Below, one piece after another: positions 33,793 to 39,230 of a DNA stretch of 64,000 nt (position 1 is its first letter; every line of letters starts with the position of its first letter). Source of the stretch: Vibrio injensis (GTDB lineage: Bacteria; Pseudomonadota; Gammaproteobacteria; Enterobacterales; Vibrionaceae); assembly GCF_001895205.1 (NCBI RefSeq), contig NZ_BDJF01000027.1, positions 434,001 through 498,000 of the forward strand, in the 5' to 3' direction. The notes under the pieces were generated by a model, which was not told where the DNA came from, ran no database searches, and saw only the letters and a list, made by a program, of their open reading frames with translations. Made by a program: the position numbers and the translations under genes.

Positions 33793-33814
33793 ACCCAGTA
33801 TGGAGACCGTTGAA

Positions 33815-34663
33815 ATGCCTTATAAAATAACTTCACTCGACCCTTTTGGGGTTATGGTTGAAGCGCAACACTCTTCTACCCATGTTGTTGAGCTTGATAT
33901 ATCGAGCTTACGCCATTTGTTTGAGCGTCATCAGCTCGTGCTCTTACGGGGCTTTACGGTTTTTGAACAGGCTGAAGATTTTGCTGACTATTGTGAGCAA
34001 TGGGGAGAAGTGAGCATATGGCCGTTTGGCCGAGTACTTGAGCTGATTCAAAAAGAGCAGCCCGAAGATCATATTTTCGACAGCAGTTACATGCCGATGC
34101 ATTGGGATGGCATGTATCGTCCGCAAGTACCAGAGTACCAGATTTTCCAATGTGTCGAAGCTCCCTTACCCGGTAATGGTGGACGGACAACGTTTTGTCA
34201 TACCATGCTTGCCTTAGACAATGCTTCGGAGCAGGAGCGATCATTATGGCGGAAAGCGACGGGACACTATCAACGTAAAATGGAGTTTTATCACAGTAAA
34301 ACGGTCTCTCCCATCGTGATGCCTCATCCATATAAAGGCTATGAGGTCATTCGTTATAACGAACCCCATGTGGTCGACAATGGTGATTTACTTAATCCAC
34401 CAGATGTTACGTTATCGGGCATTTCAGATAGTGAAGCGATGGCGTGCCATCAAAGTTTACGCCGCGCTTTGTATGACCCACGCAACTTCTATGCACATGA
34501 GTGGCAGTCAGGGGACATTGTTATTACTGATAATTTCTCTTTATTACATGGCCGCGAGGCTTTCACATCACATACCCCACGGCATATTCGTCGTGTGCAG
34601 GTTTTAAGCAATCCGCCTTACCATAACCCTAGTTTGGAGTCGTACGAATGTCCGCAAGAGTAG
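33815..34663 (+). CDS. PvcB-like Fe(II)/2-oxoglutarate dioxygenase
   Basis: This TauD/PvcB-family enzyme is 282 residues long from the ATG at 33815, which has GGAG nine bases upstream. The in-frame ATG at 33800 lacks a ribosome site. The iron ligands are intact: His96 and Asp98 in MHWDGMY and His245 in LLHGRE, with a 2-oxoglutarate-binding Arg near 260 in HIRRVQV. PvcB/IsnB enzymes oxidise isonitrile-bearing tyrosine derivatives, often with loss of the carboxylate to give a vinyl isonitrile. The stop overlaps the next gene by 16 bases, so the two are coupled. A plain TauD role is less likely, given the isonitrile synthase gene nearby. Confidence 0.75.
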   Translation: MPYKITSLDPFGVMVEAQHSSTHVVELDISSLRHLFERHQLVLLRGFTVFEQAEDFADYCEQWGEVSIWPFGRVLELIQKEQPEDHIFDSSYMPMHWDGMYRPQVPEYQIFQCVEAPLPGNGGRTTFCHTMLALDNASEQERSLWRKATGHYQRKMEFYHSKTVSPIVMPHPYKGYEVIRYNEPHVVDNGDLLNPPDVTLSGISDSEAMACHQSLRRALYDPRNFYAHEWQSGDIVITDNFSLLHGREAFTSHTPRHIRRVQVLSNPPYHNPSLESYECPQE

Positions 34664-36126
34664 TTGATATTGTTATTATTGGTGCAGGTCCGGTTGGTTT
34701 AATGAGCGCTTACTTAGCGCAGCGATATGGATTGAGTACGGTTATCATTGATAAATCTTCAGAGCCATTACAGGTTGGTCGTGCTGATGCGCTTAATGCG
34801 AGAACGTTACAATTATTAGAAATTGTCGATCTGTTTGAGCCGCTGTATCCACTGGGTAAGCCTTGTAATACCAGTTCCGTATGGGCAGATGGACAATTTA
34901 TTTCCCGCCAATCTTCATGGTGGGAAGCGTTGGAAGGCTGCTTGCATCCGCATTTTTTGATGCTTGGTCAGTCTTATCTTGAGCAGCTACTGGACGATAA
35001 ACTCACGTCATTGAATGCCCCAGTATGGCGTCAAACATCGGTGAAGGATATTGTTATTCATTCAGAGAATTGCCTGACCGAGTTAACCAATGGCGAGATC
35101 ATTGAGTCGCGTTTTGTGATTGGTGCCGATGGCGCTCAGTCGTTTGTTCGCCAGCGGTTCACTATTCCCTTCCAGATAGTGCGTCCGGAAATTATTTGGG
35201 CTGTGATTGACGGCGTTATTGACAGTGACTTCCCCAAAGTCCCGGAAATTATCGTCTTTCAAGCAGAGACTTCGGATGTCGCGTGGATTCCTCGTGAAGG
35301 TGACATCGACCGTTTTTATGTCCGAATGGATACGCATGACTTTACCGTAGAGCAAGTGATTGAAAAAATTAATCGTGCCATGGCACCACATCAATTAAGG
35401 TTTAAAAAGAGAGTGTGGTTCTCTCAATTTGCGGTTAAAGAGTCCGTTGCTGAGCGTTATGACATAGAAAATCGCCTCTTTTTAGCCGGAGATGCTTGTC
35501 ATGTTCATTCTGTCAATGGCGGGCAAGGTTTGAATACCGGATTAGCCGATGCGTTTAATTTGATCTGGAAACTGAACATGGTCCTAAAAGGTCATACGAA
35601 TGAGTCACTGCTAACCAGCTATCAAGAGGAGCGTCAACCCGTTGCCCAGAGTGTAATTGCCAGCTCGGGTGAGTTAGTGCGCTCGACCAAGTTTTCTGCA
35701 ACGAATACTCATGCGCAAGATTACGTGAAAATAGTCGAGAAGCGTTCGGGCAATATTACCGGAATGGGCATTCGTTATGGTGAACAAGGATTAGTCGGTA
35801 CGCGGATATTTGATTTTGTATTCAATACGCCAACGCAAAAAACTCGGCTTTATTCATTGCTGGATTATTGTCAATGGACATTATTGATCGCAAGTGATAC
35901 CGATTATGAGTTGAATCTGCCAGAGTTTATTAAGGTGATTCGAATTGGCTCGCGGGCAGAATATGCTCCTTATTGGACAAGTCAAAATCCATACACTGAC
36001 CAAGCGTTATTAATACGTCCAGATAGCTACATTCATTCAATCAATGATTTGCTTGATTTGAATGCGTGGTTAGCAACCAGTATCGAGGCAATATCCAATG
36101 GTTTATCAGTGCCACCTGAGTTTTAA
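34648..36126 (+). CDS. FAD-dependent aromatic monooxygenase
   Basis: This is a class A flavoprotein hydroxylase of 492 residues (PheA/TfdB/UbiH type). The FAD-binding GAGPVG is at 12-17, the GADGAQSFVRQ motif lies in the middle, and GDACHVHSVNGGQG starts near 281. GGAG lies eight bases before the ATG. Such enzymes hydroxylate phenols with NAD(P)H and O2. Coupling to the PvcB-like gene suggests that it hydroxylates the tyrosine-derived isonitrile scaffold, for example to a catechol. This flavoenzyme type differs from the PvcC type of Pseudomonas, so the product may differ too. Confidence 0.78.
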   Translation: MSARVVDIVIIGAGPVGLMSAYLAQRYGLSTVIIDKSSEPLQVGRADALNARTLQLLEIVDLFEPLYPLGKPCNTSSVWADGQFISRQSSWWEALEGCLHPHFLMLGQSYLEQLLDDKLTSLNAPVWRQTSVKDIVIHSENCLTELTNGEIIESRFVIGADGAQSFVRQRFTIPFQIVRPEIIWAVIDGVIDSDFPKVPEIIVFQAETSDVAWIPREGDIDRFYVRMDTHDFTVEQVIEKINRAMAPHQLRFKKRVWFSQFAVKESVAERYDIENRLFLAGDACHVHSVNGGQGLNTGLADAFNLIWKLNMVLKGHTNESLLTSYQEERQPVAQSVIASSGELVRSTKFSATNTHAQDYVKIVEKRSGNITGMGIRYGEQGLVGTRIFDFVFNTPTQKTRLYSLLDYCQWTLLIASDTDYELNLPEFIKVIRIGSRAEYAPYWTSQNPYTDQALLIRPDSYIHSINDLLDLNAWLATSIEAISNGLSVPPEF

Positions 36127-36280: not shown

Positions 36281-37171
36281 TCATACTTTGAGTGATGCTA
36301 TCAAATAATCAATAAAGCACCGTACACGAGGCGGAATATTTTTTCGACTTGGGTAGAGAATATTCATCGTTGTGCTGACTTGGTAAAAATCGGGAAATAA
36401 CCGAATGAGCGATGGACCGGGGATTTTATCAATTAAAAAATGAGCGATAGGGCCAATCCCTAATCCATTTTGAATCATGGCCATAACACCTAACGGCGCA
36501 TTACTGGTGTGTTTAGGTTGTAATTTTATTTGCTGCTCCTGCCCATTATGGTTAGTTAATGTAAGAATATTATTCGGTAAATTTAGCCGAGAGAGGTAAA
36601 CCCAGTCGTGATCTTGTAAATCGTCTAGGCAAGTGATCGGCTTGGCGTTATTGAGATAATCTTGACTGGCGTAAATACCTAATTCAAAAGGAGCAATCAC
36701 TCGGCCTACCATCGACGATGACGTCAACTCACCAATTCTAATCACTAAATCGAGGTTAGATTCGACCATATCTTGCAGACCATCATCTAAGCAAAGATCA
36801 AAATTGACGTGTGGATACTGTTGATAAAAATCATTTAGTAATGGATTGATCAGGAAGGTTCCGACGTCAATCGTCGTTCCAATACGAATTGTTCCTGATA
36901 TCTCTGACGCTAAATGATTCACTGCTCCCAGTGCTTGATCAGCGATATTCAGTAAGCCACGGCTGTATTGATAAAAAGTGCTTCCCTCGGTGGTCAAACT
37001 AATTTTTCTGGTTGTTCGGTGAAGTAGCCGCACATTAAGTTTTTTTTCTAATAGCGTGACTTGTTCACTGACTTTGGATTTCCCCATGCCGAGTGACTCT
37101 CCTGCTAATGTGAAGGAACCACATTCGACCACTTTATTAAATATGGCAATACGTTTTAATTCGTTAAGCAT
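36281..37171 (-). CDS. LysR-family regulator of the isonitrile cluster
   Basis: This 296-residue regulator starts at the ATG at 37171, which has AAGGGA upstream; the longer frame to 37213 lacks a ribosome site. It has an N-terminal winged helix-turn-helix (KRIAIFNKVVECGSFTLAGE, then KVSEQVTLLEKKLNVRLLHR) and a periplasmic-binding-type effector domain, resembling the CrgA/DmlR subgroup. It is divergent from the isonitrile synthase and convergent with the monooxygenase. The shared motif lies upstream of both biosynthetic units and overlaps this gene's own promoter, so it probably controls the cluster and itself. The effector is unknown. Confidence 0.85.
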   Translation of the reverse strand: MLNELKRIAIFNKVVECGSFTLAGESLGMGKSKVSEQVTLLEKKLNVRLLHRTTRKISLTTEGSTFYQYSRGLLNIADQALGAVNHLASEISGTIRIGTTIDVGTFLINPLLNDFYQQYPHVNFDLCLDDGLQDMVESNLDLVIRIGELTSSSMVGRVIAPFELGIYASQDYLNNAKPITCLDDLQDHDWVYLSRLNLPNNILTLTNHNGQEQQIKLQPKHTSNAPLGVMAMIQNGLGIGPIAHFLIDKIPGPSLIRLFPDFYQVSTTMNILYPSRKNIPPRVRCFIDYLIASLKV

Positions 37172-37195
37172 TACTGTTCCCTTATTGGTAACTTT

Positions 37196-37221
37196 GGGTT
37201 CTATTTTTGTCATCTAGTCAA
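37196..37221 (+). promoter_or_regulatory. Shared motif between LysR gene and isonitrile synthase
   Basis: This is the partner of the 33724-33749 motif, with 22 of 26 identical bases in the same orientation. TTGTCATCTA within it (37208) is repeated 21 bases further on (37229), two helical turns apart. Confidence 0.65.
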
Positions 37222-37403: not shown

Positions 37404-39230
37404 ATGCTTGATGTTTACCGAGAAACAGAGATAGATAAAATTACGTTTATTTTACTTGACCAAATTATTGCGCAATGTGATGCATCGTATCAAGGGATTG
37501 CCACACTAAAACAGCAACTGCGTGATTCGATAAGAGAACAGAAAAAAATCAAATTACTATTACCTGCATTCCCATGTAAAACCAATAATTTAGATAAAGT
37601 GATCAGCCATGAGCCTGATATAGGTGAATATCTAGTGTTAAGACGCTTTTTACAGTGTCTTCGTGATATTGAAGCGGTTTATTCTCCAGGGGTCGTCTTA
37701 TATATTTTTTCAGACTACCATACATTCTCAGATTATATTGCCGTTGATTTGTCTCATCATTATGCGTATTCTGATGGACTAAAAGAAATGCTTGTCAATA
37801 TGCATGCTGAAGATTTAATAAAAATAATTAATTTTGAAGATTTTAAAGAGTTTGATCATCTTTGTGATACCGAGTATTTTTCTGGATTACGTAATATGTT
37901 TTCAGAGCCAGGCTATGCGGAAAATTTCACTGAGTTAAAACTTAGGAATAATAAAATGAATCAAACCTATCTAGGTTTGAAAAAATTCATGAATCAAGAT
38001 CAAAAATATGTATTGTCAACGCTTTCTTACAAAGAGCGTCGTCGTCGTTTAGCTGAAATTGCTAAAGGAATGATGATACAAGGGAAAGCTCTAGATAACT
38101 TTCTAAAACAAAAGTTTTCCGATTCGATTCGTTTGAGTATTCATGAGCATCCAATGAATGGAAAAAAGTATTCACTATATTTGTTTGCAGAGCGACAATT
38201 TAAAACACCTTGGCATAGCACAGTACTTTTTGATGCAAGCCAAGGTAAAGTGATGATTGACACTAAAGAAAATCATCTCAAGCGTACAGGCATTATTTTA
38301 CCTATTTTCTATAAGGGTAAAACATGGTGTTATTTACAATTAACTTGCGTTGATCAATCAATGAGTCACGTTGTCAGCCAAATTCGAGCAGAGTTACATC
38401 ATGAAAAAGCAGGTTTACGTTTAATCAGTCCTACACCTTCTTTATCGGCGTCTGTCTTGAACATTAATGAATTGAGCCAACTAGTTAAAGAGTTTGGTTC
38501 GGTGTTATTGCATGGTTTTGCGCCTTTTCATCATCCAGATGATTTTTCGACTTGGTATCTGCAACATCGTTCTGCTGTCATTTTGGATAATGATCGCGTT
38601 GTGGAAAAATTGTCCGGTGATGCGCTACAGCAATCTATTGGTTGGCAATTCGCTACTTTATCCGATGTGATGGCTAATCGAACTTATCGATACGATTACG
38701 AAGATATTACTCCTCATGAATATGCTCTGTATTGCGCTTATTCAGAAACGCCTGTCCATGTGACTACGATAGATGCTGGATTAGCGCCGTTAACCTTACG
38801 TGGTCAAGAACGTGAGCAACTACGAAAGAGCATGTTGTATCCAATAAAGCATCACCAAGACTACGCTGAGCAGGAATTACCGCCATTGATTCGTTATTGC
38901 CAAGTATCTCGGCAAGATATTTTGCGCTGGCAGGGTCACTCACGTGGTCAACATTCAACAATACGCTTACCGCAAGTGGATGGGCGATCAAGTGGAGAGC
39001 CGATTGAACAGCGTATTGACCATTTATGCACAGAGCCGTCCCTTTGCTTTGAAAATACTTTGGTGGCAGGGGATATTCTTTTCGTAAATAACTTAACGAC
39101 ACTGCAAGCGAGTCATTCGTTATCACCGAGTAATCAATGTTGGCGTATTCAATTGCAGCCACCATCGATCAACTCACCATGGCAGCCACACAACCGTATG
39201 ATGCCAAAGGCCGTCAGTGAAGTAGTGTGA
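37404..39230 (+). CDS. PvcA-like isonitrile synthase fused to a degenerate TauD/PvcB-like domain
   Basis: Residues 1 to about 335 resemble the DIT1/PvcA isonitrile (isocyanide) synthases, which convert the amine of tyrosine or tryptophan to an isonitrile using ribulose 5-phosphate carbon. Visible marks are LLLPAFPCKT, VVLYIFSDYHTFSDY, YKERRRRLAE and LSIHEHP. From about 345 to 600 a TauD/PvcB-like domain follows (VLLHGFAPFHHPDDF, LVAGDILFVNN, CWRIQL). Aligned with the separate PvcB-like protein, the first iron His is Arg429 and the distal His is Gln568; only Asp431 and the 2-oxoglutarate Arg581 remain, so the fused domain is probably not an active dioxygenase. AAGGG lies six bases before the ATG. 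It is transcribed divergently from the LysR gene. Substrate and product are inferred from the family. Confidence 0.78.
   Translation: MLDVYRETEIDKITFILLDQIIAQCDASYQGIATLKQQLRDSIREQKKIKLLLPAFPCKTNNLDKVISHEPDIGEYLVLRRFLQCLRDIEAVYSPGVVLYIFSDYHTFSDYIAVDLSHHYAYSDGLKEMLVNMHAEDLIKIINFEDFKEFDHLCDTEYFSGLRNMFSEPGYAENFTELKLRNNKMNQTYLGLKKFMNQDQKYVLSTLSYKERRRRLAEIAKGMMIQGKALDNFLKQKFSDSIRLSIHEHPMNGKKYSLYLFAERQFKTPWHSTVLFDASQGKVMIDTKENHLKRTGIILPIFYKGKTWCYLQLTCVDQSMSHVVSQIRAELHHEKAGLRLISPTPSLSASVLNINELSQLVKEFGSVLLHGFAPFHHPDDFSTWYLQHRSAVILDNDRVVEKLSGDALQQSIGWQFATLSDVMANRTYRYDYEDITPHEYALYCAYSETPVHVTTIDAGLAPLTLRGQEREQLRKSMLYPIKHHQDYAEQELPPLIRYCQVSRQDILRWQGHSRGQHSTIRLPQVDGRSSGEPIEQRIDHLCTEPSLCFENTLVAGDILFVNNLTTLQASHSLSPSNQCWRIQLQPPSINSPWQPHNRMMPKAVSEVV

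Follow-up and report, generated by a model that had tools for sequence, protein, structure and literature searches.

An isonitrile synthase in Vibrio fused to a dioxygenase-fold domain that has lost its iron ligands

PvcA-type isonitrile synthases and their partner oxygenases are found both as fusions and as separate proteins. In the ICS-DOX proteins the two domains, PF05141 and PF02668, lie within a single polypeptide; V. cholerae IsnAB is described in these terms (PMC5974471), and the architecture is known in bacteria and in fungi (PMC5974471, PMC10153163), with IcsB and XanB of Aspergillus as further examples. Repeated loss of the TauD part in fungi is weighed as one explanation of the tree in that study (PMC10153163). 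By comparison, PvcA and PvcB of Pseudomonas aeruginosa (paerucumarin) and P.IsnA and P.IsnB are pairs of separate active proteins, and homologues of PvcA and PvcB are mentioned in V. cholerae (PMC3639982). In P.IsnB the metal ligands are given as His101, Asp103 and His250, with Arg265 anchoring the substrate carboxylate and Trp74 packed on Arg265 (PMC9467999).

We have analysed a window of 64,000 nucleotides, by which we mean the whole stretch of DNA, that encodes both of these folds in one chain. The evidence supports a chain in which a catalytic-looking synthase half is followed by a pseudo-dioxygenase, and an intact dioxygenase encoded close by. The features are as follows:

8698-33639: siderophore-type cluster, with TonB receptor, NRPS, iron ABC transporter, entB/E/C/A-like genes and DAHP synthase (all assigned by eye) and a PPTase (Pfam)
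33800..34663, plus strand: standalone PvcB-type Fe/2OG oxygenase with an intact H-x-D...H (profile, PDB search and alignment)
34648..36126, plus strand: FAD-binding aromatic-ring monooxygenase, overlapping the PvcB gene (NCBIfam PRK07190, 887 bits)
36281..37213, minus strand: LysR-type regulator of the isonitrile locus (matched in the 20-kb stretches of 9 of 10 relatives)
37404..39230, plus strand: isonitrile synthase / pseudo-dioxygenase fusion, 608 aa (ORF, profile search and fold match)
37404..38393, plus strand: isonitrile synthase half, residues 1-330 (the DIT1_PvcA, PF05141, match covers residues 41-291)
38394..39197, plus strand: pseudo-dioxygenase half of PvcB/TauD fold, residues 331-598, border approximate (fold match, weak TauD profile)
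38640..38648, plus strand: G413-W414-Q415 in place of the H-x-D iron motif, with neither ligand kept (family alignments)
38685..38720, plus strand: residues 428-439 in an insertion after H-x-D, with invariant Y-x-Y-x-D-x-T-P-x-E; mostly gap in the standalone PvcB
39105..39107, plus strand: Q568 at the position of the distal iron-ligand histidine, His250 of P.IsnB (alignments)
39144..39146, plus strand: R581 at the position of P.IsnB Arg265, retained (alignments; role from PMC9467999)
39156..39194, plus strand: residues 585-597, C-terminal tail QPxSxNSPWQxxN, of which 9 of 13 residues are invariant in 11 fusions

The reading frame of the fusion, on the plus strand and 608 aa long, lies where first annotated, and the nature of the N-terminal half is also as annotated; it matches PF05141 with E 7e-61 and 206.6 bits against a curated cut-off of 26.4. 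The full-length protein was modelled using AlphaFold (pLDDT 74.5, pTM 0.82). The synthase half of the model has the fold of PvcA and P.IsnA, giving Z 21.7 over 289 residues with PvcA (3e59) and Z 20.9 over 287 residues with 9dh4, each with an rmsd of 3.4. When the 11 fusions described below are aligned, 130 of the first 320 residues are invariant. Judging by its family and this conservation, the synthase half is presumably active, and would convert an aromatic amino acid to an isonitrile. Substrates named for such a synthase are L-Tyr or L-Trp together with ribulose-5-phosphate (PMC7949033).

The C-terminal half is barely recognisable from sequence alone. Residues 341-608 score 13.3 bits with TauD (PF02668), below the cut-off of 27, while the C-terminal halves of relatives score 77.2 (a relative with intact ligands), 72.4 and 31.7 bits; a sequence search of the PDB gave no matches up to E 10. 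Yet the domain had been described as dioxygenase-like from its sequence, and structure prediction bears this out. Its best oxygenase matches using VIA-align are P.IsnB (7tcl, Z 18.8), PvcB (3eat, Z 18.7) and 4ylm (Z 18.5), superimposing over 238-251 residues with rmsd 3.6-3.8 in the jelly-roll PvcB/TauD fold; the other TauD-fold enzymes listed fall below P.IsnB and PvcB, at Z 17.0 or less. The protein is therefore of the ICS-DOX type, with PF05141 and a TauD-type domain in one chain, a call that is based on the fold and the family alignment and not on the Pfam score of this half. It departs from that type in lacking the iron ligands.

Locating the iron site requires the correct register. The pLDDT falls below 50 around H-x-D in both modelled proteins, so that the models leave the register unsettled there, and the assignment comes from alignments. 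The fusions of two relatives (genomes G102 and G228) carry PMHWDLL and TVHGRTA, and BLASTP pairs the HWD and HGR of this type with those of the window's own PvcB. Using phmmer, the HWD and HGR of the intact relative pair with those of PvcB 3eat and P.IsnB 7tcl, and MAFFT alignments concur. In a joint alignment with PvcB and P.IsnB the columns of His101, Asp103 and His250 are occupied in the window protein by G413, Q415 and Q568. Thus all three ligands of the H-x-D...H triad are lost, and the C-terminal half should not work as an Fe/2OG oxygenase.

The initial annotation had taken R429 and D431 as the remains of H-x-D, with D431 a retained ligand, and had placed Q568 and R581 at the distal histidine and the arginine. 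All four residues are present as numbered and the last two are correctly assigned; the iron motif, however, lies 16 residues earlier, since the 11-member alignment sets HWD of G102 and G228 on G413-W-Q415, which rules out R429-Y-D431. Direct BLASTP comparison of the window's fusion and PvcB does bring HWD near R429 (E 2e-4), a slip of register that arises because the Vibrio fusions hold an insertion after H-x-D. D431 is therefore not a retained ligand: among the 10 other fusions its column holds D in G193 and G210 alone, and Q, N or S in the remaining eight. The loss of the triad itself stands. No restored triad was seen elsewhere in the C-terminal half, and no histidine of this half is invariant across the 11 fusions. 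Sequencing error can be discounted as the cause of the loss, given that the 99% identical protein of G193 has identical residues.

How general is the broken iron site? As the initial annotation had suggested, we looked for the same fusion in other genomes; of 329 genomes of the family, 11 carry it, counting the window's own (G000). PF05141 matches occur in 11 of these 329 genomes, each within a fusion, so that no PvcA-type synthase other than the fusion was found in them. The triad is intact (H/D/H) in two of the 11, G102 and G228, and broken in nine: H/N/L in G216, G217 and G218, G/Q/Q in G000 and G193, H/A/Q in G250, H/G/R in G210, W/G/I in G225 and W/G/R in G112. The arginine at the R581 column is found in 10 of 11 in the fusion-only alignment and in 9 of 11 in the joint alignment. 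The column of P.IsnB Trp74 is L394 in the window protein and leucine in G193, E in G225 and G112, and W in the other seven. In samples of 369 genomes of the class, 394 of the order and 398 of the phylum, the window's own genome gave the sole full-length match. A contig search with the C-terminal half found one relative, V. metschnikovii CIP 69.14, at 99% identity, on which basis the window's genome is regarded as V. metschnikovii-like and the family as Vibrionaceae. The G102 fusion as query matched 13 plasmid records, in which one place spans both domains within one annotated gene.

The intact dioxygenase that had been noted nearby is of PvcB type. With PvcB 3eat it gives E 9.7e-82, and with P.IsnB 7tcl E 3.1e-73; its HWD and HGR fall on His101, Asp103 and His250 of P.IsnB. 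Selectivity for vinyl isonitrile is described as requiring K or R at P.IsnB position 107 and N or H at 188 (PMC9467999); the standalone enzyme has R and N at these two positions, and it is predicted to be of this vinyl-isonitrile type.

The distribution of this enzyme mirrors the state of the fused domain. Whole-genome searches found a standalone PvcB in 9 of the 11 fusion genomes, and the same nine have the broken triad; in G102 and G228 nothing was detected at E ≤ 0.001 other than the fused domain. Among 148 Vibrio genomes sampled, six have a standalone PvcB at E ≤ 1e-20, and all six carry the fusion. A close flavin monooxygenase (65-100% identity) is present in the same nine genomes, compared with matches of only 25-26% in G102 and G228, and in all nine the genes for PvcB, this monooxygenase and the fusion are clustered in one orientation. 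Because G102 and G228 are 93% identical, this inverse correlation represents few independent events. The aligned standalone PvcBs of the nine keep H, D and H, the G112 copy being split over two overlapping frames (L022:12279-12947 and an upstream frame). Both oxygenases of G112 may be broken, or this may be an error in its 250-contig assembly.

The fused domain might have arisen as a recent duplicate, or degenerate copy, of the neighbouring PvcB. This is ruled out by the oxygenase tree, in which a branch with support 100/99.9 has the 11 Vibrio fused domains and a fused domain of Burkholderia stagnalis together on one side, while the standalone Vibrio PvcBs group with the PvcB of B. stagnalis (99/100). 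The tree includes the G112 PvcB as a partial frame and the first 275 residues of a G938 protein, and leaves aside two weak matches (L060, L071). The synthase tree was made without the PvcA rows of G938 (two), G860 and G813. Both trees are fragile, having long outgroup branches. A single clade of the nine dead fusions is weakly rejected by the synthase-half data (p-AU 0.024); the oxygenase-half data prefer it (93/87) and do not reject the alternative grouping (p-AU 0.207). The iron site may have decayed once or several times. Two further architectures were noticed in genome G938. A PvcB-type oxygenase with intact HWD and HGR (L069:97-2187, minus strand) is fused to an apparent cytochrome P450 in a 697-aa frame, the P450 being assigned by eye. 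A PvcA-type synthase lies in an 879-aa frame (L054:682-3318, minus strand), with cyclic-nucleotide-binding-like stretches towards the N terminus and an extra C-terminal domain, all again judged by eye.

Burkholderia stagnalis YJ-2 provides an instructive comparison. Unannotated frames on its plas1 read as a free PvcA, a PvcB and a flavin monooxygenase, the last sharing 66% identity with that of the window, while plas2 carries a fusion of the Vibrio architecture with HWD and HGR intact. Here the two systems are on different replicons, whereas in the nine Vibrio genomes PvcB, flavoenzyme and fusion form one locus in which the fused oxygenase is dead. We infer that two isonitrile systems have come together in the window, and that the fused oxygenase, once redundant, lost its iron site by decay. 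Beside the fusion on plas2 there is a second annotated isocyanide synthase (L073:5135-9731), near a UbiA prenyltransferase and a methyltransferase.

Set against the described systems, the window protein shares with IsnAB, IcsB and XanB the two domains in one chain, and G102 and G228 represent the form with intact ligands; the window and the other broken fusions, nine of the 11 in Vibrio, lack them, and oxidation apparently occurs in trans. IsnAB itself is compared by its published description. Compared with PvcA/PvcB and P.IsnA/P.IsnB, whose folds its two halves have, the window's synthase carries a dead oxygenase domain where theirs are free proteins. The initial annotation named fungal fusions and no described bacterial one with a dead partner; bacterial fusions have in fact been described, in IsnAB (PMC5974471). 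A fused dioxygenase half that lacks the triad and is replaced in trans did not turn up in the open-licence PMC papers searched. There is thus a natural series of intact fusion, dead fusion plus trans enzyme, and unfused trio, which lets catalytic loss in one half of a bifunctional enzyme be studied alongside its replacement. It makes testable the need of an isonitrile synthase for a pseudo-oxygenase domain, and it cautions against reading a working dioxygenase from the two domains of an ICS-DOX protein.

Purifying selection still acts on the dead domain, relaxed but not released. In four close pairs of dead copies (G000-G193 and the three pairs among G216, G217 and G218, which come from the same three genomes) dN/dS of the C-terminal half is 0.121, 0.063, 0.088 and 0.056, compared with 0.148, 0.079, 0.109 and 0.046 for the synthase half. 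In the dead pairs the dN of the C-terminal half exceeds that of the synthase half by a factor of ~1.25-2.1; in the intact pair G102/G228, where dS is near saturation, the factor is 0.6. In three wider pairs, with dS not computable and one pair being dead versus intact, the ratio is 2.0-4.4. None of the 11 fusion frames has an internal stop, the TAA counted in G102 being the end of the ORF itself. Across the 11 fusions 38 of 268 positions of the C-terminal half are invariant, and 15 of the 38 fall within the 25 positions of residues 428-439 and 585-597 (Fisher p 1.5e-8, for segments picked after viewing the alignment). The intact fusions of G102 and G228, whose genomes lack a standalone PvcB, have both segments just as the dead ones do.

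We consider it probable that the window protein is a formerly bifunctional ICS-DOX, in which another enzyme has taken over the oxidation and the oxygenase half has been retained as a structural partner for the synthase. The C-terminal half would once have oxidised the isonitrile made by the synthase, as the relatives in G102, G228 and B. stagnalis probably still do. The separately inherited PvcB-type enzyme would now desaturate the isonitrile in trans, probably by decarboxylation to a vinyl isonitrile, a product proposed because PvcB has R and N at the selectivity positions (PMC9467999). The flavin monooxygenase, which accompanies PvcB in every genome seen, probably hydroxylates the ring. To judge from its conservation, the dead domain is probably kept for the folding or stability of the synthase half. 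Since the protected segments are common to intact and dead copies, whatever the domain still does probably began before catalysis was lost and is independent of PvcB. R581, at a substrate-anchoring position kept in most copies, would also suit a role in substrate binding.

A wider proposal can be put forward only tentatively. In Vibrio the fused oxygenase may have become a permanent pseudo-enzyme partner of the isonitrile synthase, perhaps repeatedly, where the trans pair of PvcB and flavin monooxygenase was present, and may now control the synthase through stability, channelling or hand-over of the reactive isonitrile.

The dead domain had first been proposed as a docking or channelling module, binding the standalone PvcB and handing over the reactive isonitrile. 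The presence of PvcB and the flavin monooxygenase at the same locus and on the same strand in nine out of nine dead-domain genomes would be in keeping with this, as would retention of the Arg265 equivalent in eight of the nine dead copies (seven in the joint alignment). The best-conserved segments, however, are just as invariant where PvcB is absent, in G102 and G228; their protection does not depend on the presence of PvcB, and for this reason we prefer an intramolecular scaffold. Nor is any conserved surface specific to the dead copies visible, there being 40 invariant columns among the nine against 38 among all 11, weak evidence in that the two intact copies dropped are near-identical. In addition P.IsnB is reported to be monomeric (PMC9467999). 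On balance we regard docking as unlikely.

It is more doubtful still that the domain acts as a sensor, binding the isonitrile acid through R581 and regulating the synthase half. The arginine column favours this with its ten occurrences, but G210 has Y there, and the Trp74 position is altered in four proteins, albeit retained in the other seven. We find it very hard to credit that the domain is a useless remnant being lost by neutral decay: its amino acids do change faster than those of the synthase half in the dead lineages, and its branches in the oxygenase tree are long, but the dN/dS of 0.06-0.12, the uninterrupted frames and the strongly invariant insertion and tail are against it. A different metal site or new chemistry in place of the facial triad has next to nothing to recommend it, for while Y430, Y432, D434, E439, D557, N562, N563, Q585, N590, Q594 and N597 are invariant and polar, they are invariant in the two intact enzymes too, and so are no replacement, and none is histidine.

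Leaving aside these alternatives to a scaffold, the organisation of the locus varies between genomes. The LysR gene sits between PvcB/monooxygenase and the fusion in the window, G193 and G250, and is divergent and upstream in G216, G217, G218, G225 and G112; no match was found in the 20 kb around G210. The G193 gene (L023:11288-12216, minus strand) matches as two overlapping pieces, seemingly in different frames, and may be broken. Directly upstream of the isonitrile genes in the window is the siderophore-type cluster, which is of the catechol type. Among the 20-kb stretches of the ten relatives, entA/B/C/E-like genes are found beside the isonitrile locus only in G193; the G216 stretch contains an NRPS-like match at its margin.
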